Of a DNA stretch of 64,000 nt, positions 23,902 to 46,815 are shown in pieces. The notes below the pieces were generated by a model that saw only the letters and a program-made list of their open reading frames with translations, was not told the DNA's origin and did no database searches. Every line of letters begins with the position of its first letter. Position 1 is the stretch's first letter. Origin of the DNA: Hoyosella subflava DQS3-9A1. GTDB taxonomy: Bacteria; Actinomycetota; Actinomycetes; Mycobacteriales; Mycobacteriaceae. The DNA is taken from NCBI RefSeq assembly GCF_000214175.1, contig NC_015564.1:3162001-3226000 (forward strand), in the 5' to 3' direction. A program made the position numbers and the translations under genes.

Positions 23902-24498
23902 TCACTGCGACGGTGCGAGCGAGGCGATCCGCAGTGCTTCCTCGCACACCCATGCGTGCCATCGGGCTGGGTGCCGCAGCATGAAATGTCCGGCGTTTTC
24001 GACCGGGGTCCACGAGGCGCGCACTCCACGGCGCGAGGCTGCGACAACTTCCCTGCGGGATGCGTCGGGACTGGTCCACCTGTCGGCTGTCCCATGCAGG
24101 ACAGCGAGGTGCTGCGCCGACCGGAATAGGTAGCCTTCACCGCCGGGCCACCATGGTGCGAGTGCGACAACACCCAGGACGTCGGGCTCCGCCGCAAGGT
24201 GAGCAGCAACCCGCCCGCCCATCGAGTGCCCGACCAAGACGATTGGCGCACCGGGCCTTTCCCTGCGTACATCGGCCATCACGCGGCGAACGTCCGTGAT
24301 CGCCGATGAACCCCCGCGATTCCATCCGCGTACCTGGTACTGGACCTGAACGACGTGGATGCCTGAGTCGGCTCCCGCTTCCCGTATCGCGGACGTGAAA
24401 GGCCGCATCCGCACGGACGACAGATGCCAGGGTCGTGCGCGCTGCAGACTATTCGGCTTCCCGCCGGGGAGGACGAGAACGGTTGCGGTCATACCCAT
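23902..24498 (-). CDS. Alpha/beta hydrolase
   Basis: About 198 residues from ATG 24498, with nearby in-frame ATGs at 24501 and 24492; the frame extends to 24576. N-terminal ATVLVLPGGKPNS strand, nucleophile elbow VLVGHSMGGRVAAHLA (Ser near 95), Asp in LHGTADRWTSPD and catalytic His in VENAGHFMLR. Esterase or lipase-like. It lies 42 bp upstream of the FAD protein gene and is probably the first gene of the lipid operon, perhaps releasing acyl chains. Substrate unknown. Confidence 0.83.
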   Translation of the reverse strand: MGMTATVLVLPGGKPNSLQRARPWHLSSVRMRPFTSAIREAGADSGIHVVQVQYQVRGWNRGGSSAITDVRRVMADVRRERPGAPIVLVGHSMGGRVAAHLAAEPDVLGVVALAPWWPGGEGYLFRSAQHLAVLHGTADRWTSPDASRREVVAASRRGVRASWTPVENAGHFMLRHPARWHAWVCEEALRIASLAPSQ

Positions 24499-24708
24499 CA
24501 TTCGGGCCAGAAACCGCTGCGGCTTGGGCAGTGTGTCGGTCAGCACATTCGGAGCGCGCGCCGGAACACGACACATTCGAGGGAACTTTCCTCAGTAATG
24601 AGGGAAATTTGAGGGAGAGGGATGCTGCCAAATGTGGGTCCGGGTTCGCTGCACTGTTCGGACCTCACTACGCTTGGTAGGTCCGAAGTGCGAACGAAGG
24701 AGCCAGCA

Positions 24709-26112
24709 ATGGGTAACCAGCCCGACACCACTCAGCGGCACCGCGTCGTCGTCATCGGGTCCGGCTTTGGTGGCTTGTTCGCGACCCAGAAGCTGAAGCG
24801 GGCCGATGTCGAAGTGACGCTTATTGCCCGCACCACGCATCACCTTTTCCAGCCGCTGCTTTATCAAGTGGCCACCGGAATTCTGTCCGTCGGTGAGATC
24901 GCCGCACCCACCCGCGTCGTTCTGCGCAAACAGCGTAATGCGCAGGTCCTGATGGGCGAAGTGATCGACATCGATGTGAAGAACCAGACGGTCACCTCAG
25001 AGCAGTTCGGCCGCACCACTGTGACCGGCTTCGACAGCTTGATCGTCGCGGCTGGTGCTGAGCAGTCGTATTTCGGGAATGACCACTTCGCGAAGTTCGC
25101 ACCGGGCATGAAAACGGTCGATCACGCGCTTGAGTTGCGGGGCAAGATCCTCAGCGCGTTCGAGCTTGCGGAACTCTCGACTGATCCCGCCGAGCACGAG
25201 AAGCTACTGACATTCGTCGTCGTCGGCGCAGGCCCGACCGGTGTCGAGATGGCCGGACAGATTGCCGAACTGGCGCGCGACACGCTCGTCGGAACCTTCC
25301 GGCACATTGATCCAGGTGAGGCACGGATCATCTTGCTCGACGCAGCTCCGCAGGTACTGCCGCCGTTCGGGGAAAAGCTCGGTTCCAAGGCGCACCGGCG
25401 GCTCGAGAAGCTCGGCGTCGAGATCATGCTCAACACTTTTGTCACCGATGTCGACGAGAACGGCATCGTCATCAAGGACGCCGAGGGCAACCAACAGCGC
25501 ATAACGGCGTACTGCAAACTGTGGGCCGCAGGTGTCGCGGCGAGCCCGCTGGGGAAGATCCTCTCCGATCAGACGGGTACTGAGATCGACCGCGCCGGTC
25601 GTGTGATGGTGAAACCTGACCTCAGCATCGAGGGGAACCCGAACATCTTCGTCGTGGGCGACATGATGTCGCTCGACAAGCTTCCCGGTGTCGCGCAGGT
25701 CGCGATTCAGGGTGGCCGTTATGCCGCTAAGACCATCAAGCAGGAGCTGAAGGCGGAGAAGAAGGGCGAACCAGCACCGGAGCGGAAGCCGTTCAAGTAC
25801 TTCAACAAGGGCAATATGGCTGCGGTGTCGAAGTACAGCGCGGTCGCCCAGGTCGGAAGAATCAACATCAGCGGCTTCCTTGGGTGGCTGATGTGGCTCG
25901 CCGTGCACCTCGTCTACATCGTCGGCTTCAAGAGCCGTGCGGCGACGCTCTTTTCGTGGACCGTGACGTTCCTGACGAACTCACGCGCGCAGCTCACGGT
26001 GACCGAGCAGTGGATGACCGCCCGGCTTGCGATCGATCATCTTGAGGAGATCGAGGCAAAAAAGTCGGCGGACAAGGATAAGACCGCGGCCGACAAGCGC
26101 GCGGCGAGCTAA
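24709..26112 (+). CDS. ndh: Type II NADH dehydrogenase (NADH:menaquinone oxidoreductase)
   Basis: 467 residues from ATG 24709 (AAGGAG upstream). FAD motif VVVIGSGFGGLFATQKL near 15, quinone/FAD loop HHLFQPLLYQVATGILS near 50, second Rossmann motif VVVGAGPTGVEMAGQIAEL near 170, and GDMMSLDKLPGVAQVAIQGG near 315. The C-terminal amphipathic and hydrophobic helices (about 385-430) anchor it to the membrane. It oxidises NADH without pumping protons. Gene order next to the Rv1847-like thioesterase follows Rv1854c (ndh), with the urease genes missing. Confidence 0.95.
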   Translation: MGNQPDTTQRHRVVVIGSGFGGLFATQKLKRADVEVTLIARTTHHLFQPLLYQVATGILSVGEIAAPTRVVLRKQRNAQVLMGEVIDIDVKNQTVTSEQFGRTTVTGFDSLIVAAGAEQSYFGNDHFAKFAPGMKTVDHALELRGKILSAFELAELSTDPAEHEKLLTFVVVGAGPTGVEMAGQIAELARDTLVGTFRHIDPGEARIILLDAAPQVLPPFGEKLGSKAHRRLEKLGVEIMLNTFVTDVDENGIVIKDAEGNQQRITAYCKLWAAGVAASPLGKILSDQTGTEIDRAGRVMVKPDLSIEGNPNIFVVGDMMSLDKLPGVAQVAIQGGRYAAKTIKQELKAEKKGEPAPERKPFKYFNKGNMAAVSKYSAVAQVGRINISGFLGWLMWLAVHLVYIVGFKSRAATLFSWTVTFLTNSRAQLTVTEQWMTARLAIDHLEEIEAKKSADKDKTAADKRAAS

Positions 26113-26135
26113 CCGCTCCCCGAGGGTTCCGCCTC

Positions 26136-26165
26136 CCCTGGCCCCGGGACTGCCTGTGGCCAGGG
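26136..26165. terminator. Hairpin between ndh and the convergent thioesterase
   Basis: CCCTGGCC (26136-26143) pairs with GGCCAGGG (26158-26165), loop 14, in the 61-bp gap between the two stops. Confidence 0.6.
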
Positions 26166-26173
26166 CAGCGCTC

Positions 26174-26641
26174 TCAGCTCGCCCCGAGCCGCGCGGCGTC
26201 GGTGACGTTCTGCAGGCGGACGTGACCGCGTGCGATCAATTTGTGCTGGTCGTCAGTGATATTCACGAGCCACAACTGCTGCAGGCGGCCGCGATGCATC
26301 GGAATCGCATGTGCATGCAGAGTGCCCTCACGGACGGCTCGAAGGAAGTCGGTGTTGTTGTTGACGCCGACGACGTGACCGCGGTCGCCCAGCCATGCAC
26401 TACCCGCGAGGCTCGCAACGGTTTCGACTACAGCGCAATACACGCCACCGTGGACCAGACCTGCGGGCTGATGCATATCAGGACGGATCCGCCAGTGCGC
26501 GCGCACTGAGTCGGGGGTGATCTCTGTGAAGCGGAGACCAAGGTACTCGCCCATCCCGCGGCTGAGTACCTCCTCGAGGCGCTCGTAGAACTCCGGGTCC
26601 GTTACGGCAGTTTCCGTTATTTCCTCGCCAGATGGGGTCAT
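26174..26641 (-). CDS. PaaI/YdiI-type hotdog thioesterase (Rv1847-like)
   Basis: 155 residues from ATG 26641 with GGGAGG 4 bases upstream. Hotdog fold: GMGEYLGLRFTEITPDSVRAHW, then the catalytic-helix segment HQPAGLVHGGVYCAVVETVAS with the family's His-Gly-Gly and Glu, and GVNNNTDFLRAVREGTL. It hydrolyses acyl- or aroyl-CoA thioesters. It corresponds in position and orientation to M. tuberculosis Rv1847, and the predicted iron-regulated RNA lies immediately upstream on the same strand. Confidence 0.88.
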   Translation of the reverse strand: MTPSGEEITETAVTDPEFYERLEEVLSRGMGEYLGLRFTEITPDSVRAHWRIRPDMHQPAGLVHGGVYCAVVETVASLAGSAWLGDRGHVVGVNNNTDFLRAVREGTLHAHAIPMHRGRLQQLWLVNITDDQHKLIARGHVRLQNVTDAARLGAS

Positions 26642-26744
26642 CAGGCCTCCCTTGTCGAGATGGCGTCGTGTGTCTGGGTGCCGGTCACGGGACCACCCTA
26701 GGACGCATCCTGTCACAGACCACACGAAAACCGGGTGAAGACAA

Positions 26745-26868
26745 AGAGGTGGGCCCTGCGCGTGATATCGCACAGGGCCCACCATGGCATGGACCGGATG
26801 TATCTGCAGCCCTCAGTACACCGCTCGGTCCTGTATCGGTCTGTCGTCGGCTCCAGCGGAACCTTCTG
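26745..26868 (-). ncRNA. Predicted IdeR-regulated small RNA, MrsI-like by position
   Basis: On the minus strand a near-consensus promoter (TTGCTA at 26902-26897, 17-base spacer, TAATGT at 26879-26874) carries a 16/19 IdeR box in its spacer. About 85 bases downstream is an 11-bp G+C-rich hairpin followed by CTCTTTGTCTT. No convincing ORF lies between. Start near 26868 and end near 26745 are estimates (about 120 nt). Mycobacterial MrsI (ncRv11846) is an IdeR-controlled sRNA between Rv1846c and Rv1847, and here the element sits just upstream of the Rv1847 homologue on its strand. Orthology is inference; I have not aligned sequences. Confidence 0.65.
26748..26783. terminator. Strong hairpin terminator
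   Basis: GGTGGGCCCTG (26748-26758) pairs perfectly with CAGGGCCCACC (26773-26783); inner bases can extend the stem after one mismatch. Leftward, a T-rich tail follows. It would end the predicted small RNA and any read-through from the IucA/IucC-like gene before the thioesterase. Confidence 0.8.
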
Positions 26869-26876
26869 CCAAAACA

Positions 26877-26895
26877 TTAGGTGAGGCTTTCCTAA
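26877..26895. promoter_or_regulatory. IdeR/DtxR iron box (promoter of predicted sRNA)
   Basis: TTAGGTGAGGCTTTCCTAA matches the consensus TTAGGTTAGGCTAACCTAA at 16 of 19 positions. It overlaps the spacer and -10 of a minus-strand promoter, a position expected for repression by iron-loaded IdeR. Confidence 0.82.
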
Positions 26896-26940
26896 TTAGC
26901 AACCCGCGACCTCGTTTCCATGGTGTGATTGCTGTCACAT

Positions 26941-27759
26941 TCATGCTGAAGCGGGAATAGTCGGCAGCACAGCACCCGGATCCGTTCCGCGCCAGCGCAA
27001 CCGGACATGTGAAGCTTGGGTGCGCACAGGCAATCCTGACCGCGCGAGTGCATCGAGGAAGCCGCGTCCGCGCCGCAGCGATGCGGCATCGTCGCACCCG
27101 GCAAGCTGCGGGGCGTATGTTGCCGTCCCTATCACTGCCTCCCCGACCATCGACCACAGGCGCTCCGTATCGGCCCCGGTGAACTCGGAAATCCGCGCGA
27201 ACAACGGACCCAATGTCGTCTCGCACCTGTGTGCCGCCCACACCACCAGCGCTTCTTCGCACGGCATCTCCACCGCGCGCCTCGTCCGCGCAACCGGATC
27301 GCCGTGCAGCACACGCAATGCTGGGTCAACCACACCGGCCCAGTCGACCCCGCCGTCCGAGTCGTAGTGGAGCCACAGATTGTCGATCCCGGGGTCCCAT
27401 GCGCGCCCTTCGAGGGCGATGAGTGCCAGCACGCGACTCACGACCGCGTGGATCACGACATTTGCGACCTGGGCGGAAGCGAGGTCAGGTTTGCCGAGAT
27501 CCCTCATCATCCGGGCGTACATCTGTTCCAGGCGATCTTCGGAGAGCGCGGCAGCGAGCGGCCACCAGCGCCGACGAGGCTCACGAGCCATCCAGGCAAC
27601 CGCGTAGATGCGTGGATACTCAGGATCCAGCGCGCGCATCCGGTCAGCGCTGGCAAGCAACGGGACGCAGAGGTCCGCTTGTGGATCCTGATGATTGAGC
27701 ACTAAGGGTGCGGTGTCCCGATCCCCAACTGCCCTGCTGGCACGCGCTATGCCACCCAT
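26941..27759 (-). CDS. IucA/IucC C-terminal-like or ferric reductase-like protein in iron locus
   Basis: 272 residues from ATG 27759 with AGGGTGG upstream; TTG 27783 is also in frame. Soluble, mostly helical, with PEYPRIYAVAWMAREPRRRWWPL, DNLWLHYDSDGGVDWAGVVDP and MPCEEALVVWAAHRCETTLGP. The layout recalls the FhuF/IucA-IucC C-terminal iron-transport fold, but the four-Cys 2Fe-2S motif of FhuF is absent. A role in siderophore-iron release or handling is inferred from an IdeR box 27 bp upstream and the divergent FecCD operon. The family call is tentative. Confidence 0.6.
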   Translation of the reverse strand: MGGIARASRAVGDRDTAPLVLNHQDPQADLCVPLLASADRMRALDPEYPRIYAVAWMAREPRRRWWPLAAALSEDRLEQMYARMMRDLGKPDLASAQVANVVIHAVVSRVLALIALEGRAWDPGIDNLWLHYDSDGGVDWAGVVDPALRVLHGDPVARTRRAVEMPCEEALVVWAAHRCETTLGPLFARISEFTGADTERLWSMVGEAVIGTATYAPQLAGCDDAASLRRGRGFLDALARSGLPVRTQASHVRLRWRGTDPGAVLPTIPASA

Positions 27760-27785
27760 TGTCACCACCCTATCCGTCGTCAAGT

Positions 27786-27804
27786 AGAGGTAAGCCTACA
27801 CTTA
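27786..27804. promoter_or_regulatory. Weaker IdeR/DtxR box for the leftward iron gene
   Basis: On the minus strand, TAAGTGTAGGCTTACCTCT matches the IdeR consensus at 13 of 19 positions with the core TAGGCT intact. It lies 27 bp before the ATG of the IucA/IucC-like gene. Confidence 0.55.
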
Positions 27805-27877
27805 CTATGGATAGCCTATGGAACCACATCAAAAATAGAGGCACGACGCATAAGTGATCTCGGGTTTCGCGTCATAC

Positions 27878-27896
27878 TTAGGTTCGCGTAACCTAA
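27878..27896. promoter_or_regulatory. IdeR/DtxR iron box for the FecCD operon
   Basis: TTAGGTTCGCGTAACCTAA keeps both 7-base arms of the consensus perfectly (16 of 19 positions). It ends 6 bp before the first possible start codon of the permease, so the transcript is probably leaderless or nearly so. Confidence 0.88.
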
Positions 27897-27902
27897 TCAG
27901 CT

Positions 27903-29369
27903 GTGACCATGACACACCTGCGCGACGATAACGCGGGAGCGCACAAACTACCGGAGCACCGGGGGTACGAGCAGGTTCCCGCCGGATCCGCGCCACTGCC
28001 CCGGCGCGCTTGCGCCGGGGTTATCGACGCTGCCCTCTGCGCTGCACCGCTAGCTGTGGGTGCTCTTATCGTCAATGCCCTCAGCGACCAGTACGGCGGC
28101 GGACAAGCCGATCGCGTCGTTTTCGGGGCCTTCGCGGTCACAATCGCTTTGGCGGTGACTGGCTGGAACATCGGCCATCTCGGCGGACGCACTGGCCAGA
28201 GCCTAGGGAAGAAGTGGACCGGCCTCGTCCTGCGGAGTTCGCGGACGGGGCAGGCTGTCGGCTTCAGGGCGGCTCTCACTCCCGGGCTCACCCGCGCCTC
28301 GGAAACTGTCCTCCTGTCCACTGCGACCGCAGACGGATTCACCTCGTACGAGCGTGACATCAGCGTCCGGGCCCTGCGCCGCTCGCGACTGCTCGGCCTC
28401 CTAGTCCTTTCGATGATCCTCGTGGCCGTCACCCTCGCGAGTGTTGCCATTGGCGCGCGGCCACTCACTCTCGCCGAGATCTACCACGCCCTCATTACTC
28501 CCAGCGGCATCGATACCGACATCGTGGTGCGCACGCTCCGGGTGCCACGCACCCTTCTCGCGATCGTGGTGGGCATCGCAATCGGTGTCGCTGGCGCACT
28601 CATCCAGGGGCACACGCGCAACCCACTCGCCGATCCAGGGATTCTCGGCGTCAGCGCGGGCGCAGCCTTCGCTGTTGTTCTTTCTGTCTTCCTTCTGGGC
28701 CTGTCGTCGCCGCTTCAGTTCATCTGGTTCGCATTCCTCGGCGCATTTCTCGCCAGCGTCGCGGTTTTCGCTTTCGCCTCGGTCGGCGGAGGACGCGCGA
28801 GTCCATTGACGCTCCCTCTCGCCGGTGTCGCGGTCGGAGCGTTTCTCATGGCGATGACAAACGCGATAGTGCTGCTCGACCGTGCATCGCTCGATGCGTA
28901 CCGGTTCTGGAATGTGGGGTCCGTCGCCGGGCGCGGCCTCGACGTACTCATCCAGGTACTGCCCTTCATCGCGCTCGGGCTCGTGCTTGCGCTCGCCAGC
29001 ACTCCAGGGCTGAACCTGCTCAGCCTCGGTGAAGACGTCGCCCGCTCACTCGGGACAAACATCGCTTTAAACCGGACGCTCGGCATCCTCGCGATCACCC
29101 TGCTGACCGGCGCGGCGACCGCGGCGTGCGGGATGATCGCCTTCCTTGGCCTCGTCGTCCCCCACATCGCGCGGGCGATAACGGGCCCTGATTACCGCTG
29201 GCTCGTCCCGTTCGCGGGACTGTGCGGCGCCATCATGCTGCTAACCGCTGACGTACTCGGCCGCGTCGTCATCCGCCCCGGCGAGCTGCAGATTGGGATT
29301 GTCCTGGCTCTCGTCGGCGGGCCGTTCTTCATCGCACTCGTGCGGCGCCGGAAGCTGGTGACCCTGTGA
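27903..29369 (+). CDS. Iron-siderophore ABC permease (FecCD) with N-terminal RDD membrane domain
   Basis: 488 residues from GTG 27903 or ATG 27909. Residues about 30-135 form an RDD-like domain (PLPRRACAGVIDAALCA, two TM, then GGRTGQSLGKKWTGLVLRS), a segment normally a separate protein. Residues about 160-488 are a complete FecCD permease with LRVPRTLLAIVVGIAIGVAG, the QGHTRNPLADPGILGVSAGA motif and CGMIAFLGLVVPHIARAITG. It is about 140 residues longer than usual. First gene of a coupled permease-permease-ATPase operon importing ferric siderophore. No substrate-binding protein is encoded alongside. The fusion is unusual. Confidence 0.88.
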   Translation: MTMTHLRDDNAGAHKLPEHRGYEQVPAGSAPLPRRACAGVIDAALCAAPLAVGALIVNALSDQYGGGQADRVVFGAFAVTIALAVTGWNIGHLGGRTGQSLGKKWTGLVLRSSRTGQAVGFRAALTPGLTRASETVLLSTATADGFTSYERDISVRALRRSRLLGLLVLSMILVAVTLASVAIGARPLTLAEIYHALITPSGIDTDIVVRTLRVPRTLLAIVVGIAIGVAGALIQGHTRNPLADPGILGVSAGAAFAVVLSVFLLGLSSPLQFIWFAFLGAFLASVAVFAFASVGGGRASPLTLPLAGVAVGAFLMAMTNAIVLLDRASLDAYRFWNVGSVAGRGLDVLIQVLPFIALGLVLALASTPGLNLLSLGEDVARSLGTNIALNRTLGILAITLLTGAATAACGMIAFLGLVVPHIARAITGPDYRWLVPFAGLCGAIMLLTADVLGRVVIRPGELQIGIVLALVGGPFFIALVRRRKLVTL

Positions 29370-30472
29370 CTGCCACAAACTCCGGCTCCATCCGCGCATA
29401 CGCGCCGGACGCGCCCGGGACAGTCCCCACACGCCCCGCTGTGCGCCTAGGTCCGGTATCCGTCGTGTGGCGCCCACGAATGACAGCCATCACAGCCGGA
29501 CTTGCAGGGTTACTGTTCCTCCTCGTCTGTATCAACGTGGGCCGCGGCGACTACCCGATCGCACTGAGCCAGGTGATGGAGGTTCTGCTCGGTGGCGGAA
29601 CTAGCGCCGAGCGCTTCATCATCGCCGACCTGCGGCTGCCGCGATCTCTGGTAGGCGTCCTCGTCGGTGTGGCTCTTGGCGTGGCTGGCGCGATCACGCA
29701 ATCCATCACCCGCAACCCACTCGCCAGTCCCGACATCCTCGGCATCAGCATCGGGGCCAGTGTCGCGGCAGTTGCCCTGATCGTTCTCACCGGCGGTTCC
29801 ATCGCGAGCTTCCTCGGGATCTTCGGACTTCCGCTGGCAGCGCTGCTCGGCGGCCTCACGGCTGCGGTCGCTCTCTTTCTTCTGTCGTGGAAGGGCGGCG
29901 TCGATGGATTTCGCATCATCCTCATCGGCATCGCCATCACCGCGATCGGACAGGCGCTCGTGTACTGGATGCTCATCATTTCCGATATCCATGACGTCGC
30001 GCGCGCGCAAGCGTGGCTGGTCGGGTCGCTGAACGGACGCGACTGGCGCAACGTGTATCCGATGCTCACAGTCGTGCTGATCTGCGGGACCATCGCGGTC
30101 ATCGCCGCTTTCCAGCTCGGCACGCTCCGCCTCGGTGAGGACTCGGCGCGCGCGCTGGGCACGCGTCTCCAACTGGCCCAGACCACGTTGCTTCTCAGCG
30201 CTGTTGGACTCACCGCCGCAAGCGTTGCCGCGGCCGGTCCCATCGGCTTCGTCGGCCTCATGGCCCCGCAAGTCGCGCTACGGCTTGTCCGCTCTGCGGG
30301 GCCACCAATCATTGCTTCCGGGCTCACCGGCGGTTGTCTGGTTCTCCTCGCTGACATCGTGGCGCGCACCTTGCTTCCTGTTGAACTCCCCGCGGGCATT
30401 GTCACGGCCGCGCTCGGCGGCCCGTTTCTGCTGTATCTGCTGATCCGCACCAACCGAAAGGTATCGGCATGA
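29366..30472 (+). CDS. Iron-siderophore ABC permease, FecCD family (FepG-like)
   Basis: 368 residues from GTG 29366, overlapping the upstream stop (GTGA). FecCD motifs: DLRLPRSLVGVLVGVALGVAG near 90, QSITRNPLASPDILGISIGA near 112, AGPIGFVGLMAPQVALRLV near 295 and LPAGIVTAALGGPFLLYLL at the end. Pairs with the RDD-fused permease to form a heterodimeric pore. The roughly 35-residue N-terminal extension before TM1 is Pro-rich. Confidence 0.93.
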   Translation: MTATNSGSIRAYAPDAPGTVPTRPAVRLGPVSVVWRPRMTAITAGLAGLLFLLVCINVGRGDYPIALSQVMEVLLGGGTSAERFIIADLRLPRSLVGVLVGVALGVAGAITQSITRNPLASPDILGISIGASVAAVALIVLTGGSIASFLGIFGLPLAALLGGLTAAVALFLLSWKGGVDGFRIILIGIAITAIGQALVYWMLIISDIHDVARAQAWLVGSLNGRDWRNVYPMLTVVLICGTIAVIAAFQLGTLRLGEDSARALGTRLQLAQTTLLLSAVGLTAASVAAAGPIGFVGLMAPQVALRLVRSAGPPIIASGLTGGCLVLLADIVARTLLPVELPAGIVTAALGGPFLLYLLIRTNRKVSA

Positions 30473-31329
30473 CACCGACGAATGGGATCACCGCGTCGCA
30501 GCCCCGTTCCCGGCTGCACGCTGAATCGATCACCCTGAGCTACGGCGACCGGATCGTCATCGAGGACTTGAACCTCGCGATCCCGACCGGCGGTATCACG
30601 ACGATCATTGGCCCCAACGGCTGCGGCAAGTCGACACTCCTGCGCGCACTGGGCCGTTTGCTGAAACCCCGCGAAGGGTCCGTCATCCTCGACGGGAAGC
30701 TCATCACGTCGATGCGGACAAAAGAGGTAGCGCGTGTCCTCGGCATGCTCCCCCAAGCCCCTATCGCTCCTGAAGGCCTGACAGTTGCCGATCTGGTTTC
30801 TCGTGGAAGGCACCCACACCAGTCATGGCTGCGCCAATGGTCAGGAGACGATGAGCAGGAGGTGTCAGCTGCGCTCGAACTGACCGGTATCGCAGACCTC
30901 GCGGACCGGCCGATCAACGAGCTTTCCGGCGGGCAGCGCCAGCGTGTCTGGATATCCATGGCGCTGGCCCAGGGCACGGACATTCTGCTGCTCGATGAGC
31001 CCACGACCTACCTTGACCTTTCTCATGCCGTCGACGTACTCGACCTGATCGATCAGTTGCACGACGGCATGGGGCGAACGGTCGTCATGGTCCTGCACGA
31101 CCTCAACCTCGCGATTCGTTACAGCGATCATCTGGTCGTGATGAAAAACGGAAAGATCATCACGCAGGGCACACCACGCAACGTGATCACCGCGGATCTC
31201 CTCGAAGAAGCGTTCGGGCTGCGCGCCACCGTAATCGACGACCCCGCATCAGACGCACCTCTCGTCGTCCCCATCGGCACACGCCATGTGCACTCCAACC
31301 TCCTTCCGGTGACAAATATCACGCCCTGA
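30469..31329 (+). CDS. Iron-siderophore ABC transporter ATP-binding protein (FepC/FhuC-like)
   Basis: 286 residues from ATG 30469, overlapping the previous stop (ATGA). Walker A GPNGCGKSTL near 47, Q-loop in MLPQAPIAPEGLTV, the VSRGRHPHQSWLRQWS segment characteristic of FepC-type ATPases, signature LSGGQRQRVWI, Walker B ILLLDEPTTYLDLSHAVDVL and H-loop VLHDLNLAIRYSD. It energises import through the two FecCD permeases. Confidence 0.95.
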   Translation: MTPTNGITASQPRSRLHAESITLSYGDRIVIEDLNLAIPTGGITTIIGPNGCGKSTLLRALGRLLKPREGSVILDGKLITSMRTKEVARVLGMLPQAPIAPEGLTVADLVSRGRHPHQSWLRQWSGDDEQEVSAALELTGIADLADRPINELSGGQRQRVWISMALAQGTDILLLDEPTTYLDLSHAVDVLDLIDQLHDGMGRTVVMVLHDLNLAIRYSDHLVVMKNGKIITQGTPRNVITADLLEEAFGLRATVIDDPASDAPLVVPIGTRHVHSNLLPVTNITP

Positions 31330-31351
31330 ACGGGTAGCTACGACTACCCGT
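31330..31351. promoter_or_regulatory. Candidate BlaI operator
   Basis: ACGGGTAG (31330-31337) and CTACCCGT (31344-31351) form a perfect inverted repeat. A second dyad CTACG-N6-CGTAG overlaps it, starting at 31338. The TAC/GTA-rich symmetry resembles BlaI/MecI sites, and it lies 40-60 bp before blaI, consistent with autoregulation. It could also act as terminator for the iron operon. Confidence 0.5.
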
Positions 31352-31390
31352 AGTACGCACATGTGTCGAAGACTCCGTAGAATAGGAGAA

Positions 31391-31792
31391 ATGGCAGGTC
31401 TAGGAGAACTCGAGCGGGCAGTGATGGACCATCTCTGGTCCGCGCCCGAACCGCAGACCGTACGCCAGGTGCATGAGGCCCTTTCTGAGCACCGCACCCT
31501 CGCGTACACCACGGTGATGACGGTGCTGCAGCGGCTCGCGAAAAAGAAGCTCGTCGCCCAGGAACGTGGGGAACGCGCCTACCGCTACACGCCTGTAAAC
31601 GCCCGTGAAGAACTCGTCGCAGAACTCATGGTCGACGCGCTCAAGCAGGCAGAAGAGTCCGGCGGGCGCGCGGCCGCGCTGGTGCACTTCGTCGAGCGGG
31701 TTGACCCCAGTGAAGCTGCCGCCCTGCGCGACGCGCTAGCCTCACTCGACCTTCGTGACGATGCTCCGCGTGGCCGTAGGCGCGACCGCTGA
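31391..31792 (+). CDS. blaI: BlaI/MecI-family transcriptional repressor (Rv1846c-like)
   Basis: 133 residues from ATG 31391 with AGGAG 3 bases upstream. Winged-helix domain at 1-75 with GELERAVMDHLWSAPEPQTV and LAYTTVMTVLQRLAKKKLVAQERGERAYRY, then a helical dimerisation tail. It represses itself and the M56 protease gene downstream. In M. tuberculosis BlaI also controls beta-lactamase and ATP-synthase genes. Order blaI, M56 protease, gnd, guaB1 is the same as Rv1846c-Rv1843c. Confidence 0.93.
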   Translation: MAGLGELERAVMDHLWSAPEPQTVRQVHEALSEHRTLAYTTVMTVLQRLAKKKLVAQERGERAYRYTPVNAREELVAELMVDALKQAEESGGRAAALVHFVERVDPSEAAALRDALASLDLRDDAPRGRRRDR

Positions 31793-31890
31793 GGGTGATT
31801 GCTGTAACGGGACTCGCTAATTCGCGCCCTCAACAGGCACACTAGAAACGGACGAAAGACCGCTGACGGTGCCAGGCACGAGGGAGCATC

Positions 31891-32850
31891 ATGACAGGAA
31901 CGACCGCTGCTCTATTCGCGGCGCTCGCTGTGCTGCTCGCAGGTCCCGTTCCCGCGCTGCTCAGTCGTGCGCGATGGCCGCTTCGGGCACCGCGTGCCGC
32001 GCTCGTCCTGTGGCAGTCCATCGCTCTCGCGGCCGTGCTGTCCGCCTTCAGTTCCGGTCTCGCCATCGCCAGCATGCTGCTCGTACCCGGGCCCGATGGC
32101 AGGCCCACGACCTCGCCGACAGACGAAATCTCGGCGCTCGGACTGCCTCTGTGGATGCTGTCAGTTTCAGTATTCGCTCTCACCGTCCTGATCGGTGCCC
32201 GGTTGCTGTACAGCACAGCCCGCGTGGCCATCAAGACAAGGCGCAGACGGGCGCACCACCGCATGCTCGTCGACTTGCTCGATCAGCGCGATCCGCGGCT
32301 AACCGGGCTGAGCAAAGCCGACCTGCGGGTCTTGCAACATCAAGAACCTATGGCGTACTGCCTCCCCGGGCTGAAGCAGCGGGTCGTGGTGAGTGAAGGC
32401 ACCCTCGATCAGCTCGAGCCCGACGAACTCGACGCGATCCTCGCGCACGAGCGCGCACACTTGCGGGCACGTCATGACCTCGTCCTCGAAGCGTTCACCG
32501 CGGTACATGAAGCGTTCCCACGGTTCGTCCGGAGCAAGACAGCCCTCGGGTCGGTGCGATTGCTCATCGAACTTCTCGCGGACGACGCCGCACTGCGTAC
32601 AACAGGTCCCCGGCCCCTCGCCCACGCCCTGGTGACATGTGCGTCGAGCAAAACTCCCGAAGGCGCGATGGCTGCAGGCGGCCCCTCCACCGTCGTGCGC
32701 GTCCGGCGGCTCGCCGAGGGAACGTATGACGGCCGAATATCGGTAGCCGCGTATTCCGTCGCGGCGCTGATCATGGTGGGTCCGACGATCGCCGTCGCGG
32801 TCCCCTGGCTGGTCGAATTGTCCCGCCTTTTCGGCCTGGCGCCACGCTGA
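31891..32850 (+). CDS. M56-family membrane metallopeptidase (BlaR1-like, Rv1845c-like)
   Basis: 319 residues from ATG 31891 with AGGGAG upstream. Three TM segments in the first 110 residues, then a cytoplasmic gluzincin domain with zinc motif HERAH (His186, Glu187, His190) and AYCLPGLKQRVVVSEG before it; the last TM is at 270-290. Unlike BlaR1 it lacks a penicillin-binding sensor domain, so the trigger is unknown. It presumably cleaves BlaI, encoded 98 bp upstream. Confidence 0.9.
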   Translation: MTGTTAALFAALAVLLAGPVPALLSRARWPLRAPRAALVLWQSIALAAVLSAFSSGLAIASMLLVPGPDGRPTTSPTDEISALGLPLWMLSVSVFALTVLIGARLLYSTARVAIKTRRRRAHHRMLVDLLDQRDPRLTGLSKADLRVLQHQEPMAYCLPGLKQRVVVSEGTLDQLEPDELDAILAHERAHLRARHDLVLEAFTAVHEAFPRFVRSKTALGSVRLLIELLADDAALRTTGPRPLAHALVTCASSKTPEGAMAAGGPSTVVRVRRLAEGTYDGRISVAAYSVAALIMVGPTIAVAVPWLVELSRLFGLAPR

Positions 32851-43647: not shown

Positions 43648-46488
<2,841 letters not shown>

Positions 46489-46534: not shown

Positions 46535-46749
46535 CATCCGCTGTCGGTCCTCCCCCTCTGTCGCTGCCACAATGGGCGCCTGAGAGATTCGGCGGCGACG
46601 ACTGGATGTCTCGCTGGGCTTTTCCCCGTGGGCGGGTGGCTCACCACCACTTTCCAGAGGCGCCGCAGCACGTACGGTCCTTGTGCCTGAGAGATTGTCG
46701 GAGAGGTGTTGCTCCTTCGGCGCCCATCAGTTGATGATGGGACTCTCCC
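46535..46749 (-). promoter_or_regulatory. Tandem glycine riboswitch upstream of gcvP
   Basis: Read leftward from 46749 the leader begins GGGAGAGTCCC, followed by GGCGCCGAAGGAGCAA, CACCTCTCCG and AATCTCTCAGGCA, then CTCTGGAAAG closing the first aptamer. A second copy follows with CGGGGAAAAGCCC, CCGCCGAATCTCTCAGGC and ACAGAGGGGGAG. These are the conserved elements of gcvT-type glycine aptamers in tandem. It ends about 45 bp before gcvP. Confidence 0.93.
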
Positions 46750-46815
46750 GCACGGCATCGGCGCATCACGAGTCTAGCCCGGTCCCTGCTGCCGTGCGAA
46801 CTGGAGCTAGCAGTA

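Follow-up and report, generated by a model that had tools for sequence, protein, structure and literature searches.

A short interval upstream of an Rv1847-like thioesterase gene, in the 64,000-nt stretch of the Hoyosella subflava DQS3-9A1 genome analyzed here (hereafter, the window), raises the question of whether the IdeR-controlled small RNA MrsI has a counterpart outside Mycobacterium. MrsI (ncRv11846) is described as an RNA of about 100 nt encoded on the plus strand of H37Rv (2096766-2096867), in the gap that separates blaI from Rv1847; an IdeR site lies close to its start, a rho-independent terminator is predicted, and its reported targets are bfrA, hypF, and fprA (PMC8628891; PMC11188477). 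Its apical loop is described as 7 nt in size and its seed as 6-8 nt (PMC11188477). To answer the question, we considered the promoter and fold of the putative RNA, its covariation among relatives, its range, its neighboring genes, and its candidate targets.

Predicted Promoter, IdeR Box, and Small RNA

The preliminary description of this DNA proposed a minus-strand promoter (TTGCTA, 17 nt, TAATGT) carrying a 16/19 IdeR box, followed by a strong hairpin with a T-rich tail and situated between the stop of one gene and the Rv1847-like thioesterase. All of these elements are found at the locus, with the stop being that of an FhuF-like gene (Table 1). The consensus sequence for IdeR boxes used in scoring is TTAGGTTAGSCTAACCTAA, and the box at the locus has three mismatches to it in 19 positions. 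Five sites with at most three mismatches occur in the whole genome, and two of these fall in the window (this box and the second box in Table 1), as compared with 0.00 in 100 shuffles of the window. A TTG is present at similar spacing in most relatives (by eye, uncounted). A generic sigma-70 scan of positions 24000-32000 called no promoter, because the TTGCTA/TAATGT pair scores under the cut-off of the scan.

Table 1. Features of the locus and its surroundings (positions in the window; strand left empty where none applies).
Feature	Position	Strand	Basis or remarks
Rv1847-like thioesterase, positional marker	26174-26641	-	best PDB match 3s4k (Rv1847), E 5.3e-41
Predicted small RNA (probable MrsI orthologue)	26738-26868	-	R1 match and fold; predicted start about 7 nt past the -10 hexamer
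Intrinsic terminator	26738-26783	-	stem 26783-26748, 15 pairs; tail 26747-26738, TCTTTGTCTT
Seed hairpin GGACCG...CGGTCC with inner stem	26791-26831	-	alignment A2, pair counts
7-nt apical loop AGGGCUG	26807-26813	-	fold and alignment; nearly invariant in 29 rows
-10 hexamer TAATGT	26874-26879	-	sequence; putative promoter; 17-nt spacer to -35
Predicted IdeR box TTAGGAAAGCCTCACCTAA	26877-26895	-	16/19; between -35 and -10, overlaps -10
-35 hexamer TTGCTA	26897-26902	-	sequence; putative promoter
FhuF-like ferric reductase, upstream neighbor	26941-27783	-	Pfam FhuF, E 2.5e-4
Second IdeR box, near-palindromic	27878-27896		17/19; gap between FhuF-like gene and FecCD operon
FecCD (with RDD domain), FecCD, and ABC ATPase genes	27903-31329	+	Pfam
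BlaI/Rv1846c-like repressor, positional marker	31361-31792	+	Pfam Penicillinase_R

The predicted RNA is about 120-130 nt long, with some 40 nt of leader after the -10 hexamer, then the GGACCG...CGGTCC hairpin, and finally the terminator with its T-rich tail. Folding of positions 26868-26745 gave a z-score of -4.97, and none of 200 shuffles folded equally well. The apical loop of the first hairpin, AGGGCUG, is likely to be the seed. The terminator hairpin is the longest of seven in positions 24000-32000, where shuffles average 4.1, and the count alone therefore says little. The interval had also been described as ORF-free, which holds only roughly: mechanically listed ORFs touch it (26813-27262 on the minus strand, 26632-26880 on the plus strand, and the thioesterase ORF when extended upstream as far as 26785). 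Nothing seen at the locus favors these ORFs, and the conservation found there is that of the hairpin. Judging from its ribosome site, the thioesterase itself most likely starts at 26641.

Conservation and Covariation

Thioesterase loci were gathered with protein P0001 in 3 genomes of the genus and 301 of the family. Of the 30 best family loci, 29 have the loop motif no more than 1.5 kb upstream of the thioesterase, and in the 30th genome (G141) the covariance model R1, described below, locates the RNA about 49 kb from the thioesterase. We aligned 29 loci, including the one in the window (alignment A2; 28 distinct rows, seven genera), and found in them a common hairpin that covaries and whose apex, CUG-AGGGCUG-CAG, hardly varies. 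Changes on both sides are seen in 16 of the 27 predicted pairs, and 97.7% of cells pair, as compared with less than 48% in every slid control. In 81 cells both members of a pair are changed, against 24 in shuffles, a control that treats related rows as independent, and at most 14 in slid alignments. When five measures were compared with 500 shuffles, the number of further pair types was reached in 38 shuffles and the other four measures in none. For 13 of the 15 pairs in the terminator stem, at least one row differs on both sides.

The IdeR box accompanies the loop motif: a box matching at 13-16 of 19 positions lies within 140 nt upstream of the motif in all 109 loci that hold it, a set drawn from 130 given loci (the remaining 21 had no motif or too little sequence upstream) in which M. 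iranicum, at least, appears twice. Among control windows, 35 of 1921 (1.8%) reach a 13/19 match. In four of the same 109 loci, the closing stem is swapped from CUG/CAG to CAG/CUG, with the loop AGGGCUG unchanged; selection would appear to act on this loop together with its closing stem.

The element might alternatively act in cis, as an attenuator or 5' leader in the thioesterase mRNA, with no separate small RNA: it shares the strand of the thioesterase, precedes the start of that gene by about 100 nt in the window, and has the thioesterase within 1.2 kb downstream in 106 of the 109 loci. However, a strong terminator stands between the RNA and the thioesterase, and the distance between the two is variable: measured from the beginning of the RNA core, aligned thioesterase starts lie about 110 to 580 nt downstream, and those of four loci (L022-L025) more than 1 kb downstream. 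Moreover, in genomes G083 and G141 the thioesterase is 22 kb and 49 kb away, respectively, and the RNA is intact. A leader is thus very unlikely, and a free-standing small RNA is the reading followed below.

Range and Relationship to Mycobacterial MrsI

Model R1 was built from the 29 rows of A2 in seven genera, with no rows from the Mycobacterium-type genus g29. In the genome under study, it matches G000:C3:3188747-3188831, i.e., positions 26747-26831 of the window (83.8 bits, E 3.4e-10), a sequence that is itself a row of R1. Matches were obtained in 226 of the 301 family genomes, belonging to 21 of 31 genera, with 75 genomes giving none. In an order-level sample, 34 of 249 genomes matched, all of them within this family. 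Weak members were possibly missed because both searches used strict filters. Three loci missed by R1 (L109 in G009, L093 in G026, and L106 in G214), which come from two genera without matches and from one Mycobacterium-type genome, carry by eye a variant hairpin and an IdeR-like box, the seed hairpin of L106 being intact and its terminator absent; the range is therefore probably wider than counted. The RNA may be duplicated in four genomes of genus g27 (G145, G155, G204, and G230), each of which matches R1 twice. Nothing in Rfam 15 matches the interval at gathering level, sub-threshold matches alone being obtained when E was allowed to reach 10; in five relatives likewise no match fell on the RNA. 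In two mycobacteria, Rfam matches to 5_ureB_sRNA adjoin the MrsI locus (L190, 5116-5400; L193, 4811-5102).

We also searched named mycobacterial loci, namely the best 80 of 515 confirmed stretches obtained with an Rv1847 piece (PDB 3s4k) and eleven relatives as queries; these are sister species, with M. tuberculosis and M. smegmatis not among them. R1 matches 62 of the 80 Mycobacterium-type loci (E <= 1.3e-5), on the thioesterase strand and with the Rv1847 orthologue downstream; M. szulgai, M. gastri, M. persicum, M. simiae, and M. iranicum are among the species matched. Another 53 weak opposite-strand matches (E 0.016-0.92), which overlap the palindrome of the terminator, were dropped. Contig G231:C97 of a g29 genome has the same sequence as M. 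iranicum at this locus, and by this identity genus g29 is Mycobacterium in the wide sense. Among the 18 named loci without an R1 match, 11 are from Mycolicibacter and have the hairpin degenerate or gone; the RNA seems to have been lost or strongly changed in this type of lineage. In some of the unmatched loci L101, L103, L104, and L107 and the 11 from Mycolicibacter (L157-L200), a piece of the loop and an IdeR-like site matching at 11-12 of 19 positions can be seen by eye, hardly over background.

Since the homology rests on sister species and not on the letters of M. tuberculosis MrsI itself, and since most of the unmatched named loci are those Mycolicibacter loci, one could also suppose an IdeR-controlled RNA of separate origin and MrsI-like action, with only place and promoter shared. 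Yet a single covariance model covers both sets, which have the same loop, closing stem, and terminator; a separate origin is very unlikely. The kinship with MrsI put forward in the preliminary description is supported by the agreement of place, strand, IdeR box, terminator, 7-nt loop, and R1 homology to named mycobacteria. From these comparisons, the locus very probably represents an orthologue of MrsI outside Mycobacterium, which would be an iron-sparing RNA.

The literature surveyed, on MrsI, IdeR small RNAs, and the conservation of Rv1847 in Rhodococcus and Nocardia, describes MrsI for mycobacteria only, and we found in it no report of the RNA outside Mycobacterium, though the original 2018 paper may discuss wider conservation; the putative orthologues identified here extend this to the 21 matched genera. 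The main text of a study of predicted conserved RNAs has no Rv1847, Rv1846c, or coordinate beginning with 2096 (PMC3388012), a transcriptome of R. erythropolis names F6 and ideR and not MrsI (PMC10986025), Rv1847 appears only in an antisense table in PMC3207917, and MrsI is absent from the main text of PMC9569102.

Neighboring Genes

The gene order in the window is BlaI, Fec genes, FhuF-like gene, RNA, thioesterase, and Ndh. The BlaI-like repressor is, by family and gene order, the presumed orthologue of Rv1846c. The Pfam match of the FhuF-like protein (22 bits) is below the gathering score of 25.2. The first Fec gene (27903-29369, plus strand) encodes a FecCD permease carrying an N-terminal RDD domain in a single open frame. 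Relatives also show IdeR boxes about 1 kb upstream of the thioesterase. Elsewhere in the window, a glycine riboswitch (46665-46760, minus strand; Rfam, 65.9 bits) lies upstream of a large ORF (43648-46488) that by eye resembles glycine dehydrogenase.

An iron-uptake locus had been described as inserted beside the RNA. The locus is present, but its insertion is the weaker part of the claim: the RNA is closely preceded by an FhuF-like gene in 36 of 49 loci from the family and in 9 of 60 named loci of Mycobacterium type, counts in which the short flanks of loci may conceal some such genes, and loss elsewhere is therefore as likely as insertion here. A further, very unlikely alternative is that there is no RNA gene and the hairpin terminates the FhuF-like transcript, with the box a remnant. 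The terminator stem starts about 160 nt past the stop codon of the FhuF-like gene and could also serve to end its transcript. Yet, besides this stem, a non-terminator hairpin whose loop is fixed is kept across genera, the IdeR box is kept, and the RNA occurs in the other 51 of the 60 named loci without an FhuF-like gene closely upstream.

Proposed Function and Candidate Targets

As an MrsI orthologue, the RNA would be repressed when iron is plentiful, with IdeR bound to the box between the -35 and -10 hexamers blocking RNA polymerase. Iron shortage would relieve this block and allow synthesis of a separate transcript of about 120-130 nt that stops at its own terminator. Its two-part hairpin is predicted to expose the 7-nt loop AGGGCUG, of which GGGCUG could pair with CAGCCC in mRNA leaders. 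Such pairing would lower the synthesis of dispensable iron proteins, and thus spare iron.

Of 31 Mycobacterium-type loci, 26 have CAGCCC in the 80 nt preceding bfr, as do 12 of 26 loci in a set of 14 other genera (present in five genera and absent in nine); the rows are related, and the count overstates their independence. It is the commonest of the 4096 hexamers in the 80 nt before the bacterioferritin genes collected, from which locus L224 was dropped for its misplaced start. Permuted hexamers reach means of 3.0 (Mycobacterium-type) and 1.6 (others) and maxima of 14 and 8; the top values belong to hexamers that overlap the CAGCCC motif itself with a shift. The occurrence before Mycobacterium bfr fits the published MrsI-bfrA pair. 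In the genus of the window, none of three genomes has an exact CAGCCC in the 80 nt before bfr, which is the MrsI target known best, and this absence speaks against bfr as a putative target there.

Other candidates were sought in the genome of the window (G000) and in G001 and G002, the latter a sister species. Scans with GCAGCCCTC gave, among the matches listed, 75, 73, and 61 sites in G000, G001, and G002, respectively, against 47, 56, and 34 for the reversed pattern. CAGCCCT before AGG and ATG gave 18, 18, and 17 sites against 14, 17, and 16, with no clear surplus; none of the genes behind three sites examined evidently encodes an iron protein, and one site that is conserved lies ahead of an acyl-CoA dehydrogenase gene. 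CAGCCC before GGAG and ATG gave 47 sites in G000 and 59 in G002, the reversed pattern 16 and 21. Because the reversed pattern lacks real gene starts, this control was replaced by the permuted hexamer CACGCC, against which CAGCCC has no surplus in G000 (47 vs. 56 sites).

All 47 and 56 sites were read, and 18 and 27 of them, respectively, passed a coding filter. With iron-protein status assigned by family, six of the 18 CAGCCC sites precede iron proteins (pirin, SufB, IlvD, ferredoxin, catalase, and NuoF; a ferredoxin reductase was excluded), as compared with three of the 27 CACGCC sites (an EgtB-like protein, an MPAB/Lcp oxygenase, and one assigned by eye without a Pfam match; a FUR-family regulator was excluded). 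The one-sided Fisher p is 0.075, or 0.034 with only the two Pfam-backed control proteins. In the genome of the window, ilvD and the catalase gene have two CAGCCC sites each in their start regions. We examined 13 of the 59 sites in G002, five paired with a G000 site and eight chosen by eye: the sister species keeps the site at sufB, ilvD, and pirin, and also at two non-iron genes (Cu/Zn superoxide dismutase and acyl-CoA dehydrogenase), and further sites precede two genes judged by eye to encode an indolepyruvate ferredoxin oxidoreductase and a Rieske oxygenase. The catalase site is kept in G001 and absent in G002, and ilvD was not found in the stretch of G001 examined. We take sufB, ilvD, catalase, nuoF, ferredoxin, and pirin as candidate local targets, as a lead only.

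A possible, if doubtful, reading is that MrsI is an ancient iron-sparing RNA present throughout the family, with its loop frozen and its regulon rewired, such that the genus of the window would have dropped bacterioferritin and would instead act directly to damp the Fe-S and haem proteins of these six candidates. If this were true, the RNA would be closer to RyhB than the mycobacterial version is. The orthologues yield a covariance model, show which bases appear to be under selection, and enable comparative prediction of targets, and the lineages without the RNA or with a decayed copy can serve as natural controls.

Comparison with Known Iron-Sparing RNAs

The RNA predicted here has in common with MrsI its place adjoining Rv1847 on the same strand, an IdeR box near the start, a terminator, a similar length, and a 7-nt apical loop, the loop being complementary to Mycobacterium bfr leaders. 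It differs in that an FhuF-like gene and an iron-type ABC transporter separate it from blaI, in its slightly greater predicted length (120-130 vs. about 100 nt, from a predicted start), and in that bfr of this genus has no exact complement of the loop. RyhB, PrrF, FsrA, and IsrR are likewise described as made at low iron and as lowering iron proteins, and the RNA here would act alike; IsrR is reported to share neither place nor sequence with other iron-sparing RNAs, including MrsI (PMC9410917). By contrast with the IdeR control predicted here, these four RNAs are controlled by Fur, and RyhB and PrrF use Hfq, whereas FsrA uses FbpABC.
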